The position numbers and the translations under genes were made by a program. The notes under the pieces were generated by a model. It was not told where the DNA came from. It made no database searches and was given only the letters and a program-made list of their open reading frames with translations. DNA of 39,131 bases from Ignavibacteriales bacterium (GTDB lineage: Bacteria > Bacteroidota > Ignavibacteria > Ignavibacteriales > Ignavibacteriaceae): the NCBI GenBank assembly GCA_012517155.1, contig JAAYVN010000125.1, positions 1-39,131 on the forward strand, given 5' to 3'. Position 1 is the first letter of the stretch; each line of letters starts with the position of its first letter. Below are positions 31,402-39,131 of this stretch, piece after piece.

Positions 31402-34002
31402 ATGACGAAAAAGTTGACTCAGCTTTTTACTGTTTCTTTATTAGCTTTGCTTATCTCTTCATGCGGAGTTAATAAAGAAATAGTAAAAGAGGGCGAGGGT
31501 AATGAAAATGCGAATCTAAACCGTGGTGAAATCGTTTCTGAATTGCTTGAAGAAGCAAGGCAGCATTATGTTTCTGCTCTCTCAAAACAAGAGATGAACA
31601 GTGTGGAAGAAGCTATAAATAGCTATGAATCTGCACTTCGGCTTATTAACAACCTCAGTTACTACCCTGGAATTGAAGAAAATGAAGCCTATCTGGAGCT
31701 TTCAAATTCTTTAATTGAAGACTATAAGAAATACATTGACGGACTCCCTGAATTACCGGATAATGTAAGTTTTGCTGCTTTGGAAGAATGGATGGGCGTA
31801 TCCTTAAAAGATTTGGATATTGCTTCTGACGATTCTCAATCTCCCACAAAGATAATAATTCCTGCTGATATTCCCTTGGAAGTAAATTCAACTGTTGAGC
31901 AGTTTATTGAATTCTTTACCGGAAAAGGCAGGAAACAGATGACTGCTTGGCTTGAAAGATCGGGCAAATATTTCCCGCTCATGGACAGGATTTTTTCAGA
32001 AGAGCAAGTCCCTAGACAGTTAATATTTTTAAGTATGATAGAAAGCGGCCTGAACCCTACAGCTCGTTCTTGGGCTAGTGCAGTTGGTCTTTGGCAGTTT
32101 ATCAAAAGCACAGGGCACATGTATGGTCTGAAAACAGAATTCTATTATGATGAAAGGAGAGATCCTGAAAAATCAACTAGAGCTGCTGCCAGGCATCTGA
32201 GAGATCTTTACAACTCGCTGGGAGACTGGTATCTTGCACTTGCATCCTATAATGCGGGTGAGGGAAGAATTACCAGAGCAATTAAAAGAGCAGGCTCAAA
32301 CAATTTCTGGGAGATTTCTAGGTTCCTTCCTAAGGAAACCAGAAACTACGTCCCCCAGTATATCGCTGCTTCTATGATTGCTTTAGATCCTGAAAAATAT
32401 GGATTTGAAAATATTAAATACCAAAACCCATATTCCTATGAAACCGTCAAAGTCTCTGATGCAGTTGATTTTTCATTCCTGTCACAATGCGCTGGTATAT
32501 CTCAGGAAGCCCTTCAGGATCTGAATCCGGAGTTAACTCAAAACTGTACGCCAAATAATTTCCCGGGTGGTTATAACCTTAAAATACCTGTGGGAAGCTC
32601 CCAAACATTTGCAACAAATTATATTAATCTTCCTGAATCCGCTAAAAGACAATTTGTGTTTCATAGCGTTAAAAGAAGAGAGTCAATTTCCTCTATTGCT
32701 TCTATTTATGGAGTTACAAAAGAAGAATTAGCTGATGCTAATAACCTTTCTACGAAAAGTAAACTGAAAACTGGAATGCGCCTGCGAATTCCTTTTACAA
32801 ATGTTTCTGCTAAAAGTGATTTTGCATATAATTCCAATATTGAGGAAGCTAATGACAATGGTTCTTACGTTTCACCTTATGAAAACTTAAACAAAAATCC
32901 TAATAATCCGGAAACTAATAACTCTGGCACAGAGAACATTGTTTCAAACGAAGAGGAAATTTCCGATTCTGAAAACGAACCAACTGAAAATAAACCTCTC
33001 CCGGTTATAAATCCTGTCGGAAAAGTTTCTGTCGGTTATACGGTTAAAAAAGGTGAGTCTCTCCTCTCGATTTCCGATCTGTTTGATGTTCGTGTTAGTG
33101 ATATTCGTAACTGGAATAACATACCATATACAACTCAGATCAAAGTTGGTCAGAAATTAGTAATGTATGTTCCGGAAGAAAAGAAAGACTATTTTGTAAG
33201 TCTCGATAATCAATCCGCTAACGAAAAACTTACTCTGCAAATAGATAAAAATTCGGAAAAAAATATCGTCACAAAAAATATTCGCCATAAAGTTAAAAGA
33301 GGTGAAAATTTAGCCGGGATTTCAGCTAAATACGGCGTGACTATTGCTGATCTGAAAAACTGGAACAAACTCTCTTCAAACAAAATTATGAAGGGACAAT
33401 ATTTAACAATCAGAACCTCTTCAACTAATTATACACCACCCGAATATACTAAAAATGAACAAAAAACATTCAGGTATAAGGTTAAAAAAGGTGAGACTTT
33501 AGGTGGAATAGCTGAAAAGTTTCATGTTAGCGTCAAAGATTTACAAAGATGGAATAATATCTCCGGAACCAATATCAGAGCAAGTCAGTTACTTAGTATT
33601 CATGGAAATGATGTCTCGAATTCGATGGGAGACAATACTACGAAAATGCCCTCTAACTTATCCAATTATGTTGTAAAAAAGGGGGAAACCATTGGCGAGA
33701 TTGCAGAATTGTTTAAAACCTCCGTTGCTAATGTTAAGAAATGGAATGGACTTAAATCAAACCGTATAATTGCAGGGCAAAAGTTGAAAATCTATTCCAA
33801 CATATCAACTACTGACATAAAACCAAAGAATAATAAAGAAGTAGTCTCCCAAAAAACAAAAAAGAATGAATATTTAGTAAAAAGGGGTGATTCACTTGAT
33901 TCAATTTCAAAGAAATTTAAGATTTCTGTTCAGAAACTAAAAACACTGAATAAACTGACAGGTAATAGAATTGATGCCGGTCAGAAATTGGTCGTTAAAT
34001 AA
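31402..34002 (+). CDS. mltD: MltD-like lytic transglycosylase lipoprotein with six LysM repeats
   Basis: An 866-residue lipoprotein that cleaves peptidoglycan glycan strands. The lipobox ends at Cys21 (LLISSC). Residues ~190-330 are an SLT transglycosylase domain with catalytic Glu214 in SMIESGLNP, then '[19 protein letters not shown]' and '[12 protein letters not shown]'. A LysM-like '[15 protein letters not shown]' segment follows. Six LysM domains bind peptidoglycan: starts at '[13 protein letters not shown]', '[13 protein letters not shown]', '[13 protein letters not shown]', '[13 protein letters not shown]', '[13 protein letters not shown]' and '[13 protein letters not shown]', the last reaching the C-terminus. 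Typical MltD has two or three LysM units, so this is long. AGGAG supports ATG 31402; it has its own promoter and is followed by the thiamine riboswitch. Confidence 0.94.
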
Positions 34003-34040
34003 AATAGTTCTTTTATATTTTGCTATGATGAGCCGTTAAA

Positions 34041-34125
34041 CGTTCATCGTCGGGGTGCCACGCTCGTGGCTGAGAATATACCCTTAGAACCTGATCCAGG
34101 TAATTCTGGCGTAGGGAAATTAATT
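34041..34125 (+). ncRNA. TPP riboswitch (THI element) aptamer
   Basis: Conserved blocks are present in order: CGGGGTGCC (34051), a compact P3 hairpin GCCAC-gctc-GTGGC (34057-34070), CTGAGA (34070-34075), ACCCTT (34080-34085), GAACCTGATCCAGGTAAT (34088-34104) and CTGGCGTAGGGAA (34106-34118). P2 pairs GGGGT with ACCC(T); P5 pairs CCAG with CTGG. These match the thiamin-pyrophosphate aptamer consensus closely. The outer P1 stem is not obvious. It lies in the leader of the TonB-receptor/TPK/SSS operon, and an intrinsic terminator follows directly. Confidence 0.95.
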
Positions 34126-34130
34126 TTTTG

Positions 34131-34171
34131 CCGTTATTGAAATCCTACGCTTTCAATAACGGTTTTTTTTT
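34131..34171 (+). terminator. Riboswitch-controlled intrinsic terminator
   Basis: A perfect 12-base stem CCGTTATTGAAA (34131-34142) / TTTCAATAACGG (34151-34162), loop TCCTACGC and nine T residues (34163-34171), 13 bases before the TonB-receptor ATG. The loop contains CCTACGC, complementary to GCGTAGG at 34109-34115 inside the conserved 3' strand of the aptamer. That suggests ligand-dependent competition: with TPP bound, GCGTAGG is used by the aptamer and the terminator forms. Confidence 0.92.
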
Positions 34172-34184
34172 GACTGTATGAGAT

Positions 34185-36572
34185 ATGAAACAATTCTTAA
34201 TTCTGGTACTGATAACTTTTTCAGTACTTTTACATGGACAAAAAAATGCTAACTTGTCCATTGTAGTTTTTGCAGATTCAATAAATGCTCCGGTAGCTAA
34301 TGCTACGGTTATGATCCCGAAATTTAAGATTTTGAGGACTACAGATAAAGAAGGAAAATGCTTCTTGGAAAATCTTCCAATAGGACAGTTAGGCATTTCA
34401 ATTTCTTTTGTTGGTTTTGCTACAGTTCAAAAGACCATCGAACTTAAGGATGGGAATAATTATTTAGAATTTTTTCTGCAAAGCGAGGTTATTCCAATTG
34501 ATGAAATTACCGTTACTGCAACTCGGGGTATAGATCGGGAAACTCCTGTTACATTTTCCAATCTATCCGGCAAGGAGATTGGATACATCTCTAACAGCAG
34601 TGACATAACATCAGCCCTGACCACTCTTCCATCAGTTTCCTATCACAGCGAAAATGGCAATGGGCTTGGATATACATATATACGCTTAAGAGGCTTTGAT
34701 CAAAGAAGAATATCAGTGCTGATTAATGGAATCCCTCAAAATGATCCTGAAGAGCATAGTGTCTATTGGATTAACTTTTTCGATTTAGCTGGTTCTCTGC
34801 AGGATGCCCAAATTCAAAGAGGAGCCGGTGCTGCTTTTTATGGTCCCCCTTCAATTGGAGGTTCAATAAATCTGGTTACTAAAACCGGTGGCGATAATCC
34901 TTCATTAACTCTTGAAACAGGAGTTGGCAGTTTCAATACTAGACGATTTTCTCTCTCTTTAGGATCCGGAATTCTGTATAATAATTTTAGGCTCTTCTCA
35001 AGGTTATCAAGAGTTACTTCAGATGGTTATCGGGATTGGTCCTGGTCAAAATTCTGGAAGTATTTTCTGTCTGCAACCTATTCTGATCAAAGACAGTCGC
35101 TGAATATCAATTTTCATGGTGGTCCACAAAAAGACGGATTGGCTTTTTATGGTATCCCAAAGAGTTACAACTCAGATCCGGTTTTACGAAAGTTTAACTT
35201 TGGTATTGTCAATAGAGATAAGGAGTACTTGAATTCAGTACAATTTTCTCTTATACACGATTACTTGCTGTCAGAAAAAATCAATTTGCATAATACATTT
35301 TTCTATACTTCCGGTGACGGCTATTTTGATTTTGACGGGAGTTGGGGAACTCATGATTACTTCCGCTTGGATACATCTTTTTCTATTCCCCTGAATACTG
35401 TTATTCGGGCTTATGTCAACAATGACCAGTTTGGATGGTTGCCAAGGATGGAACTTTCATACAATAATGGAAAACTGATAACCGGTTTTGAAATCCGGAA
35501 TCATTCTTCATTACATTGGGGGAGGATTGAATCCGGAGATGGTTTACCACTTACAGGTGAAAAAGCTCAGAATTTTTACGAGTACAGGGGCAAAAAGAGT
35601 ATTTATTCTGTCTATCTGAATAATCTTATCTCCTTTTATAACCAACTGTTGCTTCTTTCTGATGTTCAGATTATTTATCAGCAATATCGCTTCTTTGGTG
35701 AGAAATACAGAAACCATGATTTTACTACCCCTTACTTGTTTGTTAATCCTAAACTTGGTCTCAATTTTAATATTAATGAATTTTCTAACCTCTATTTAAG
35801 CGCTGCTCTTACTTATCGTGAGCCGCCACTAAAAAATCTTTACGATGGTGAATCTGCTTCCTGGGGAGTAGATCCTCAATTCAATAAAAATCCTGATGGT
35901 ACGTATGATTATTCTGATCCTCTCGTTAAACCGGAAAGACTGCTGAATTTTGAACTAGGCCAAAGGATTACCGCTTCGAATTTTAGATTAAATGCAAATT
36001 TGTATTGGATGGAATTTCATAACGAAATCGTACCATCTGGTGGATTGGATGTTTATGGGCAACCTCGGGTTGGAAATGCCGAAAGGACTAGACATATTGG
36101 ATTGGAAATAGAAGGTGTCTTTAGACTCCTGACTGGATTGGATATTCGTGCAAATCTTAATCTTTCCAGGAACAGGTTTATTAATTTTATTGAATACAGC
36201 CCTGCTGGCGAATCTTTGGATCGGAAAGGAAACTATATTGCCAATGCGCCGGAGTTAATTATTAATTCTTCTTTAGTATATTCGTACTCGGACTATTTGC
36301 TTGCCTTGTATTTTAAGTATAATGGTAAGCATTATACAGATAATTCACAAAATCCGTCGAACACTAATGAGGATGCTGTAACAGTTGACCCTTTTTCGGT
36401 TTTTGATTTAAGAGCGGGTTACTCATTCAATGTTTTTGCTCTAAATATAAATATTCTGGGGGAAGTGATCAACATCTTCGATATAAAATACTTGATGACA
36501 GGTTTTGGATTAGACAATTTCTTTCCTGCAGCCGGAAGAGCTTATTATTTAACTGTTAAATTAAATTTATAA
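34185..36572 (+). CDS. TonB-dependent outer-membrane receptor, predicted thiamine uptake
   Basis: A 795-residue outer-membrane importer. It has a signal peptide ('ILVLITFSVLLHGQ'), then a carboxypeptidase-regulatory-like domain (about residues 22-100: 'SIVVFADSINAPVANATVMI', 'FVGFATVQKTIEL'). The plug follows, starting 'DEITVTATRGIDRETPVTF' and holding 'TYIRLRGFDQRRISVLINGI', 'QIQRGAGAAFYGPPSIGGSI' and 'NLVTKTGG'. A 22-strand-type barrel ends 'RAYYLTVKLNL'. The substrate is inferred from the TPP riboswitch directly upstream and the thiamine pyrophosphokinase starting on the next base after its stop. No strong Shine-Dalgarno precedes ATG 34185. Confidence 0.9.
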   Translation: MKQFLILVLITFSVLLHGQKNANLSIVVFADSINAPVANATVMIPKFKILRTTDKEGKCFLENLPIGQLGISISFVGFATVQKTIELKDGNNYLEFFLQSEVIPIDEITVTATRGIDRETPVTFSNLSGKEIGYISNSSDITSALTTLPSVSYHSENGNGLGYTYIRLRGFDQRRISVLINGIPQNDPEEHSVYWINFFDLAGSLQDAQIQRGAGAAFYGPPSIGGSINLVTKTGGDNPSLTLETGVGSFNTRRFSLSLGSGILYNNFRLFSRLSRVTSDGYRDWSWSKFWKYFLSATYSDQRQSLNINFHGGPQKDGLAFYGIPKSYNSDPVLRKFNFGIVNRDKEYLNSVQFSLIHDYLLSEKINLHNTFFYTSGDGYFDFDGSWGTHDYFRLDTSFSIPLNTVIRAYVNNDQFGWLPRMELSYNNGKLITGFEIRNHSSLHWGRIESGDGLPLTGEKAQNFYEYRGKKSIYSVYLNNLISFYNQLLLLSDVQIIYQQYRFFGEKYRNHDFTTPYLFVNPKLGLNFNINEFSNLYLSAALTYREPPLKNLYDGESASWGVDPQFNKNPDGTYDYSDPLVKPERLLNFELGQRITASNFRLNANLYWMEFHNEIVPSGGLDVYGQPRVGNAERTRHIGLEIEGVFRLLTGLDIRANLNLSRNRFINFIEYSPAGESLDRKGNYIANAPELIINSSLVYSYSDYLLALYFKYNGKHYTDNSQNPSNTNEDAVTVDPFSVFDLRAGYSFNVFALNINILGEVINIFDIKYLMTGFGLDNFFPAAGRAYYLTVKLNL

Positions 36573-37238
36573 ATGAAAAACAAAATACAAGTATGCTTGA
36601 TCATTGGGTCAGCAGACATTCCGAAAGCGAAGGATATTAATTTCTTTGTAAAAAGAAAAAATGATCTTGTAATAATTGCTGCTGATGGTGGTTTGAAAAA
36701 TGCTTCAAAACTGAAACTTATTCCCCACTTTTTAATTGGAGATTTTGATTCGGTTTCTCCTCATCAATTAAAACAATTGCCCTCTGAGACCAAAATAGTA
36801 AAATTCAGCGGTCAGGAAGATACAGATATTGAAAAATCCATAAAATATGCTCAGTCTAAAGGGTGCAAAGAATTTTTTATCACCGGTGTTTTAGGCAAAC
36901 GCATAGAACACACAATCGGAAATATCAGTATTCTTCATAAATACACTAATAAGCATACTAAAATCCGGATTATCGGGAAATACTCTTTACTTGAAGTAAT
37001 TAATAGTTCTTATAAGTTTCGTACTCATCCCGGAGAAAAAATCTCTTTTTTTTCTTTTAATAAAGAAACTCGGATTATTACAAATGGTCTGAAATATCCG
37101 TTAAATGATGAATCACTCTTTTTTGGTGAAAGAGAGAGCATAAGTAACGAAACGACAGGCGAAATGGCAAGCTTGGAAATCAGGAGTGGGGAACTATTAT
37201 TAATAAGAGATCTAAAAACGATAACTGCAAATGGTTAG
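36573..37238 (+). CDS. thiN: Thiamine pyrophosphokinase
   Basis: Converts thiamine plus ATP to TPP and AMP in the cytoplasm. The 221-residue family length is normal. Catalytic-domain motifs are 'IIAADGGLKNASKL', 'HFLIGDFDSV' (acidic metal-binding pair), 'GQEDTDIEKSIKYAQSKG' and 'GVLGKRIEHTIGNISIL', the last corresponding to the family's G-R-x-D-H-T-x-x-N-I-x-L with Glu in place of Asp. The C-terminal 'SFNKETRIITNGLKYPL' and 'SNETTG' form the thiamine-binding beta domain. The ATG immediately follows the receptor's stop, and its end overlaps the symporter by eight bases, so translation is coupled. Confidence 0.95.
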   Translation: MKNKIQVCLIIGSADIPKAKDINFFVKRKNDLVIIAADGGLKNASKLKLIPHFLIGDFDSVSPHQLKQLPSETKIVKFSGQEDTDIEKSIKYAQSKGCKEFFITGVLGKRIEHTIGNISILHKYTNKHTKIRIIGKYSLLEVINSSYKFRTHPGEKISFFSFNKETRIITNGLKYPLNDESLFFGERESISNETTGEMASLEIRSGELLLIRDLKTITANG

Positions 37239-38610
37239 TTTTTCAACTTTCGATCTGGTTGTTATTTGTCTTTTCGCCTTAATAACTTTACTTATCGGTT
37301 TTCTGAGCACAAGGAAAAGTATGGCAGATAACGAGGATTATCTCCTTGCAGGGCGGAAAGTTGGCTTAATTCCATTTATACTTATTAACGTTTCTACATG
37401 GTATGGTGGTATTCTTGGGGTAGGTGAGTTTACTTACCGCTATGGGTTACTTTCATGGTTCACTCAGGGGTTACCATATTATATATTCGCCATACTATTT
37501 GCGGTTTTTTTAGTCCCGAAGATTCGGGGAGGAAGTATTTTTACTATTCCGGAAAAAATATATAAGGAATTTGGAACTGCACTAAGTCTTTGGTCTGCTT
37601 TACTTGTTTTCATTCTCGTGACACCTGCCCCTTATTTGCTTATGATTGCAAATATTATTGACCTGGTATTCAATACCGGTATTTTTGTGGCCTTAATTAT
37701 TGGTGCAGTAATCTCAATTGTATATCTGTTCTTTGGGGGATTCAGGGCGAATGTATGGGTCGATTCATTTTTATTTTTTATAATGTTCGGCGGATTTATT
37801 TTAACTCTTTTTCTTCTGGTAGATAATTACGGTGGCTTGACCTTCTTAACAAATAACTTGCCTCCATCACATCTTAAACTTACGGGAGATGCCTCTCCCA
37901 TGTTTATAATTGTTTGGTTTATTATTGCTATATGGACTTTTACTGATCCCGGATTTCATCAAAGGACATCATCTGCATCTTCCATAAAAGTTGCGAAATG
38001 GGGGATTATTATTTCAGTCGTTTTCTGGGGTGGATTTGACTTCTTAACCACCAGCATTGGATTATTTTCGCGTGCATTATTGCCTGATTTGGTAAATCCT
38101 GTTCTGTCATATCCCTTGCTGGCTGAAAAAGTTCTGACCGATGGAATTAAAGGTATTTTTTATATAGCCATGTTTGCAACAATCCTGTCAACTCTGAATA
38201 GTTTCTTCTTTCTCTCGGCTACAACAATAAGTTTTGATTTTCTTGCGAAAATATTGAAATCGGGTAATACGGTAAAATTTAACTTGCCGATTATGACCTC
38301 AATTGGTCTGGTTCTTTCTGCAGCTTTGTCTGTTTTACTTGCCTACTTTGTCCCTTCTGTCATCCAAATATGGTATTCTGTTGGTTCGATTTTCATACCA
38401 TCGCTCCTGATCATAATAATGACCGCATACTTCCAGCAAATTCGCATTTCAAAACTATGGTTGTTTGGCGAAAGTCTGATATCAGCATTAATTAGTTTAA
38501 TCTTGTTCCTTGTTGGCTTTCAGGGTGAGCCAATGCTGATCGGACTTGGAACTGTTGCCTTGCTTCATGTAATTGGTCTGATTATTTATCGGCAAAAAAA
38601 ATATTGCTAA
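37231..38610 (+). CDS. SSS-family Na+/solute symporter, candidate thiamine permease
   Basis: A 459-residue inner-membrane protein of the sodium:solute symporter (SSS) family with about 12-13 helices. Landmarks: 'MADNEDYLLAGRKVGLIPF' (family signature near residue 30), 'STWYGGILGVGEFTYRYG', 'YLFFGGFRANVWVD', 'FTDPGFHQRTSSASS' and 'FATILSTLNSFFFLSATTIS', the last two holding the Na+-site region. It lies eight bases inside the end of thiN, downstream of a TPP riboswitch and the TonB receptor, so the likely cargo is thiamine or a precursor. Bacteroidota usually use PnuT in this position; SSS members (ThiV) have been proposed for thiamine in other organisms. The substrate is inference from context. 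Confidence 0.9.
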   Translation: MVSFSTFDLVVICLFALITLLIGFLSTRKSMADNEDYLLAGRKVGLIPFILINVSTWYGGILGVGEFTYRYGLLSWFTQGLPYYIFAILFAVFLVPKIRGGSIFTIPEKIYKEFGTALSLWSALLVFILVTPAPYLLMIANIIDLVFNTGIFVALIIGAVISIVYLFFGGFRANVWVDSFLFFIMFGGFILTLFLLVDNYGGLTFLTNNLPPSHLKLTGDASPMFIIVWFIIAIWTFTDPGFHQRTSSASSIKVAKWGIIISVVFWGGFDFLTTSIGLFSRALLPDLVNPVLSYPLLAEKVLTDGIKGIFYIAMFATILSTLNSFFFLSATTISFDFLAKILKSGNTVKFNLPIMTSIGLVLSAALSVLLAYFVPSVIQIWYSVGSIFIPSLLIIIMTAYFQQIRISKLWLFGESLISALISLILFLVGFQGEPMLIGLGTVALLHVIGLIIYRQKKYC

Positions 38611-38692: not shown

Positions 38693-39131
38693 TTAGAAAA
38701 TTTTTACGTCTTGAGGAATCTCGAACAAATCCCGTTTTATTGCAATATTTGTCTCCAATTTTGTCGCCCGGGATTCGAATTCCATTCCGGCTGTGACCAG
38801 AATGAGTTTAAGAGTTATTCCTTCCCAGGTCCAGACTGTGCCTTTCATTTTCCCGCTTTCAAATGAGGTCACTTTGCATTTCTTGTTTAGGACTATTTCG
38901 TCTGGAAGCTCAGAGATTTGCCAGTTAGCAAGCATCTCTTTTGAGTATTTTGAGAAGTCGAATGAATTAAGATCTTGTATAGAATTAATCTTTATTTTGT
39001 TCCCCGTTTTCTTTATCATATCAATTGAAGAAATAAACCCATCCTTAACGATTTTTCTGGTATGAGTCTTGATTTTCTGTCCCATCACTTCCATTTCGCT
39101 TATTTCTTCTGACATTTCCAAATCACCATAC
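38693..39131 (-). CDS. Hypothetical protein, N-terminally truncated by window edge
   Basis: A leftward gene whose 5' end lies beyond the window; the frame stays open to the edge (Y-G-D-L-E before Met at 39121), so 39121 is probably not the true start. About 146 residues are visible. The end has the pattern 'WTWEGITLKLILVTAGMEFE', 'ATKLETNIAI', 'DLFEIPQDVKI', a beta-strand arrangement common in periplasmic or lipoprotein proteins of the LolA/DUF4412 type, where a substrate-like 'G-I-P/T-L-K' strand is followed by 'FEIP'. Not recognised with certainty. It is convergent with the symporter and followed by a terminator at 38606-38643. Confidence 0.65.
   Translation of the reverse strand, partial: YGDLEMSEEISEMEVMGQKIKTHTRKIVKDGFISSIDMIKKTGNKIKINSIQDLNSFDFSKYSKEMLANWQISELPDEIVLNKKCKVTSFESGKMKGTVWTWEGITLKLILVTAGMEFESRATKLETNIAIKRDLFEIPQDVKIF

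Follow-up and report, generated by a model that had tools for sequence, protein, structure and literature searches.

Genes and regulatory elements at the locus

The window studied here is the whole stretch of 39,131 nucleotides, an entire contig of a 3.29 Mb genome (99.65% complete) whose host, to judge from a Melioribacteraceae MAG as the one named close relative found, most likely falls in the Ignavibacteria, with Ignavibacteriota as its NCBI phylum; GTDB puts the Ignavibacteria inside the Bacteroidota. A TPP riboswitch and an intrinsic terminator are followed, all in plus-strand orientation, by genes for a TonB-dependent receptor, a thiamine pyrophosphokinase (TPK) and a symporter of the SSS family. 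The aptamer (34041-34135) scores 65.3 bits (E 8.9e-11) with Rfam model RF00059, against a gathering score of 54.3, and is the sole TPP riboswitch in the window and in the whole genome. The receptor gene (34185-36572) encodes 795 amino acids in which a domain search recognized Plug, barrel and CarboxypepD_reg-like domains (PF07715, PF00593). TonB-dependent receptor domains encoded immediately after a TPP riboswitch are the mark of the OMthi/OMR1 type, and the protein is predicted to be an outer-membrane thiamine receptor of that type; its homologues lie behind TPP riboswitches phylum-wide, even where the operon is split. The TPK gene (36573-37238), the ATG of which abuts the receptor stop codon, encodes 221 amino acids with both the catalytic and the B1-binding domain (PF04263, PF04265) and a TIGR01378 score of 157.1 bits against a cut-off of 76.4. 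It overlaps by 8 bases the symporter gene (37231-38610), whose product of 459 amino acids is the predicted Na+-coupled inner-membrane thiamine importer; this protein matches PF00474 with 84.1 bits against a gathering threshold of 22.8 and falls under the cut-off of TIGR00813, a narrower SSS model (111 vs 184). An initial annotation, made from the sequence letters, had described the four elements as contiguous or overlapping, and the Rfam, Pfam and TIGR searches agree with its coordinates and gene calls.

Behind the aptamer, the terminator (34130-34171) combines a 13-pair stem (34130-34163) with a T9 tract, and its loop, CCTACGC (34144-34150), was found by script to be the exact complement of GCGTAGG (34109-34115), a stretch of the conserved aptamer core that we regard as a candidate antiterminator strand. 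When 41 riboswitches of the order (that of the window and 40 from relatives) were surveyed up to 140 bases from the core, terminators comparable to the window's were present in 34, where shuffled sequences predict 1.75, and in 30 of the 41 a strand located after the core complements the 5' arm of the terminator, which is the usual antiterminator design. The window terminator is unusual in that its loop complements the aptamer core, the relatives having GCCGTTT/AAACGGC terminators; the antiterminator of the window thus seems to be of a different design from theirs. Within this leader region (34020-34171), the P1 stem of the window riboswitch is also weak. With such a terminator and a candidate antiterminator pairing, transcription attenuation driven by TPP is the likely mechanism of control.

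The flanks of the operon can be described briefly. Upstream, a gene for an MltD-like murein transglycosylase (31402-34002), whose product contains six LysM stretches, ends 38 bases 5' of the riboswitch, and this gap therefore leaves scant room for a promoter. Downstream, a minus-strand open reading frame (38693-39130) runs off the contig end and is without a Pfam or NCBIfam match.

Conservation in the order and thiamine metabolism of the host

Conservation was followed in a sample of 97 genomes of the order, the host included with its relatives. An orthologue of the symporter is encoded in 91 of them, with 43-58% identity in the relatives (49% between the window protein and its homologue in a Melioribacteraceae MAG), and TPK, which was searched across the genomes with a Pfam model, lies just 5' of it in 90 of these 91. 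Furthermore, each of the 80 orthologues that could be tested is preceded on its own strand by a TPP riboswitch, at a distance of 3.2-4.2 kb. The remaining 11 were rejected as true exceptions, each being too near a contig end. As all 80 testable relatives repeat this order, the arrangement of the locus is not a matter of chance, and the check named in the initial annotation, whether orthologues co-occur with TPP riboswitches, came out in its favour; within the order we did not see the pattern that would have spoken against it, with orthologues usually outside TPP-regulated operons. Control of the symporter gene by a TPP riboswitch is also one of the features by which ThiV/SSSP proteins are recognized, and it is shared by the same 80 orthologues. 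Among the six genomes without an orthologue, two (G014 and G051) have contigs that stop at or just past the TPK gene; neither the riboswitch nor TPK is present in the remaining four, which are 77-93% complete. In one of these four (G017, 93% complete) the searches found no TPP riboswitch, no TPK and no symporter orthologue, and either the assembly has missed the locus in one piece or this lineage obtains TPP differently.

The host genome encodes a single TPK, and genome profile searches detected neither ThiC nor ThiE; PF04973, the model for PnuC and PnuT, has no match anywhere in it. The initial annotation had named thiC, thiE and pnuT as genes to look for, and all three are thus absent. It had also named thiD, for which the sole candidate, the only PF08543 match in the genome, reads as an HldE-type sugar kinase and was rejected, so that no ThiD was found. 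In the order sample, ThiC together with full-length ThiE occurs in just two of the 97 genomes (G003 and G092), and both of these carry, besides the uptake operon, a second TPP riboswitch immediately 5' of thiC (G003:C53:89888-94144 and G092:C3:263449-267377). The substrate of TPK is free, unphosphorylated thiamine. As ThiE is absent, with ThiC and ThiD also not found, HMP would be useless to the host, and with a TPK that acts on free thiamine the operon must, judged from its gene content, serve intact thiamine rather than HMP.

Probable exchange of the symporter and PnuT across the phylum

In gut Bacteroidetes, the OMthi-pnuT-tnr3 systems similarly comprise a TPP riboswitch, an outer-membrane receptor, an inner-membrane carrier and TPK, in one operon or split, but their inner-membrane carrier is PnuT, of the PnuC family (PMC5613172); furthermore, Bacteroides thetaiotaomicron, unlike the host, also makes thiamine (PMC5613172). 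In a phylum sample of 247 genomes, the symporter (called at E <=1e-30) is present in 71 and PnuC/PnuT (PF04973 above cut-off, a family that takes in PnuC for nicotinamide riboside as well as PnuT) in 103, and no genome carries both. Counted by genus, the symporter is found in 49 and PnuC/PnuT in 58 of 121, again never together, where 23.5 co-occurrences would be expected; the corresponding exclusion p-values of about 1e-21 ignore shared ancestry and, because the genomes share it, overstate their independence. The proposal of the initial annotation that an SSS symporter stands in place of PnuT is thus upheld by the absence of PnuT from the host and by the mutual exclusion in all 247 genomes. 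On this comparative evidence, the SSS protein would take over the role played by PnuT elsewhere in the Bacteroidota, a non-orthologous replacement that belongs to an explanation which we consider, as a whole, to be very probable.

Three families (f6, f10 and f27) each contain both carrier states, in different genera, and therefore multiple replacements are likely. The family f10 gives the closest comparison, as one genus (G178) has the order riboswitch-receptor-TPK-PnuT and three other genera (G204, G275 and G313) have riboswitch-receptor-TPK-symporter. The G178 operon with PnuT in the symporter slot (L155, 8537-5165) has a weak TPP riboswitch of 45.5 bits. Among nine PnuC/PnuT loci that were examined, the receptor-TPK-PnuT operon was seen in G178 only; in another (G154), TPK is the convergent neighbour of the PnuC/PnuT gene, and the other loci of the nine may represent PnuC or a stand-alone PnuT. 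In five families (f15, f16, f26, f27 and f42) the riboswitch controls the receptor alone, and the symporter gene lies directly 3' of TPK at a separate site, where no riboswitch was found. Because these split-operon families keep the symporter beside TPK, the link to TPK outlasts that to the riboswitch.

To place the symporter within its superfamily, 59 sampled homologues from the phylum were put in a tree with Escherichia coli PutP, PanF, ActP and YidK, a Proteus protein of the SGLT type and other SSS proteins of Ignavibacteria. All 59 form one clade (bootstrap 100, SH-aLRT 99, stem length 1.23), which stands apart from all of these reference groups, the other SSS proteins of Ignavibacteria included, and the phylogeny proposed in the initial annotation thus sets the symporter outside the characterised groups that the tree contained. 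The proteins for pantothenate and proline were also considered by profile and rejected, with scores of 49 vs 328 bits for PanF (TIGR02119) and 48.5 vs 515.5 bits for PutP (TIGR02121), and the symporter protein has no match to PF04973. Within the clade, the 52 TPK-linked homologues group together with weak support (84/54), and the seven that are not linked to TPK (from f6, f7 and f11) form a separate group (100/99). The genomes of this sister group encode TPK elsewhere and lack PnuC/PnuT. Its members (L107, L108 and L109 from f7, L082, L084 and L085 from f11, and L086 from f6) have neighbours that include genes for RNase HII, a pyrimidine nucleoside phosphorylase and an epimerase, with no TPK or TPP riboswitch beside them. 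An SSS protein from a Clostridioides difficile plasmid (NZ_CP149720.1; L151, 2977-4371) is the neighbour of the thiamine-linked clade in the tree and has WYGG, Glu and DPxF in common with it; because no thiamine genes lie near it, the motif WYGG...E...DPxF is not specific for thiamine. None of the plasmid-record loci examined carried a thiamine-linked SSS gene, and a search for SiaT through nanA loci returned only MFS carriers.

Predicted pocket, substrate and significance

An AlphaFold2 model built from 53 sequences (mean pLDDT 94.6) has the LeuT-type fold that, with the PF00474 score, places the protein in the SSS family. The closest solved structures in a profile search were the high-affinity choline transporter 9rws (E 4.5e-28) and human CHT1 (6.5e-21); in a fold search, CHT1 with hemicholinium-3 came first (Z 45.9, rmsd 2.7 over 451 residues), followed by SiaT (Z 38.3) and SGLT1 (Z 37.1). 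The residues around choline in CHT1 are W62, Y67, Y91, W141, W254 and W406 (PMC11589582). By profile alignment and over the 52 TPK-linked sequences, W62 corresponds to W57 (51/52), Y91 to Y83 or Y84 (Y84 in 52/52), W406 to W381 (52/52) and E73, which contacts the outer ammonium of hemicholinium, to E66 (52/52), and the Ser-Thr pair of the Na2 site is retained as S320 and T321. Counterparts of W62, Y91, W406 and E73 are thus kept relative to CHT1 and the bacterial sfCHT (PMC11589582, PMC13220886). However, the full CHT cage of W62, Y91, W141 and W254 is matched only at W57 and Y83/Y84, W141 being replaced by Ser, Thr or Asn at position 131 and W254 by an invariant Asp239; in addition, the break in TM1 is two residues shorter, identity is 16% and the context is that of thiamine. 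In the unlinked sister group, W381 is replaced by I, F, M or L, and W235 by Q. We suggest, as a hypothesis, that the thiazolium of thiamine would be accommodated by such an incomplete cation cage supplemented with an acidic residue.

The proteins known as ThiV, SSSP and SSSQ, from SAR11, algae and others, are also SSS proteins under TPP-riboswitch control with a role in vitamin B1 (PMC11452348, PMC4260697), and ThiV has been listed among the B1 transporters (PMC6593275). The ThiV/SSSP signature comprises Y78, D139 and F254 in SiaT numbering (PMC11452348). On a provisional register to SiaT, an invariant Y84 in TM2, and F242 (51/52) with an H or Y after it in TM6, would fit it; in TM3 of the aligned homologues no invariant Asp was found. 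ThiV, to which the initial annotation pointed, is likewise a TPP-controlled SSS protein; the substrate here is predicted to be thiamine, whereas SAR11 ThiV is tied to the uptake of HMP. The organisms with SAR11 ThiV keep thiE and thiG (PMC10881298); the present host lacks ThiE, and its symporter is paired with TPK.

We therefore had to weigh what else such a protein might carry. The likeness to choline transporters, in the nearest solved structures and in the three cage aromatics retained, would suit a carrier of choline or another quaternary amine that merely sits in the operon while thiamine enters otherwise; we think this very unlikely, given that, out of four cation-pi residues, two have been substituted, that the linkage to TPK survives the splitting of the operon, that the gene excludes PnuC/PnuT and that a search of the host genome for PnuT found none. 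Import of thiamine phosphates, or export of surplus thiamine, seems less probable still. Excretion has been suggested for some secondary vitamin carriers, PanF and PnuT among them (PMC6593275), but an exporter would be of no gain to auxotrophs and its expression would be expected under TPP scarcity, and with regard to phosphates, TPK works on the unphosphorylated vitamin and the invariant acidic residues of the membrane region would suit a cation better. The least probable of these alternatives is import of HMP or another pyrimidine precursor, for which there is a precedent in ThiV, an SSS protein controlled by TPP and linked to the uptake of HMP (PMC11452348): the host and 95 of the 97 genomes of the order sample are without ThiC and full-length ThiE and could not convert HMP to thiamine, and the partner enzyme uses thiamine itself.

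Thus, it appears very probable, from gene content and comparative genomics, that the locus is a complete operon for the salvage of intact thiamine in a thiamine auxotroph, with the SSS protein as its inner-membrane step. At low TPP, transcription would run through the riboswitch, the TonB-dependent receptor would admit thiamine to the periplasm, from where the SSS protein would carry it with sodium across the inner membrane, and TPK would convert it to TPP; at high TPP, the aptamer would fold, free the terminator and switch the operon off. A wider proposal, to which we give about even chances, is that these proteins form a Na+-coupled thiamine transporter family, distinct from PnuT and possibly also from ThiV, in which a partial aromatic cage of the CHT1 type and the invariant D239 recognize the thiazolium, and that this family has swapped places with PnuT more than once in the Bacteroidota/Ignavibacteriota, at least once in the same operon slot.

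This kind of operon is already known as a prediction. The Caldithrix abyssi locus Cabys_3975-3977, reported in 2017 as a TPP-regulated predicted thiamine uptake locus, similarly brings together a TPP riboswitch, a TonB-dependent receptor, a sodium-solute symporter and TPK; however, it concerns a single genome of another phylum, and conservation, the logic of the substrate and the replacement of PnuT are not taken up in the available part of that report (PMC5317091). The full vitamin route with a less studied transporter, as envisaged in the initial annotation, is confirmed in its gene set and, in view of the Caldithrix locus, is less unusual than was supposed (PMC5317091). To this the present analysis adds conservation across the lineage, the argument against HMP, the finding that the symporter and PnuC/PnuT exclude each other, and a predicted pocket. 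Ignavibacteria-type heterotrophs live in anammox communities, where an exchange of B vitamins has been proposed (PMC5460018, PMC9530715). Many auxotrophs are without a known inner-membrane thiamine carrier; the SSS clade is predicted to provide this step in almost every genome sampled from the order, and thiamine biosynthesis is lacking in most of these genomes. This yields a gene that can now be annotated and a compact operon, together with a structural hypothesis on the way in which a cationic vitamin could be selected by an SSS protein.
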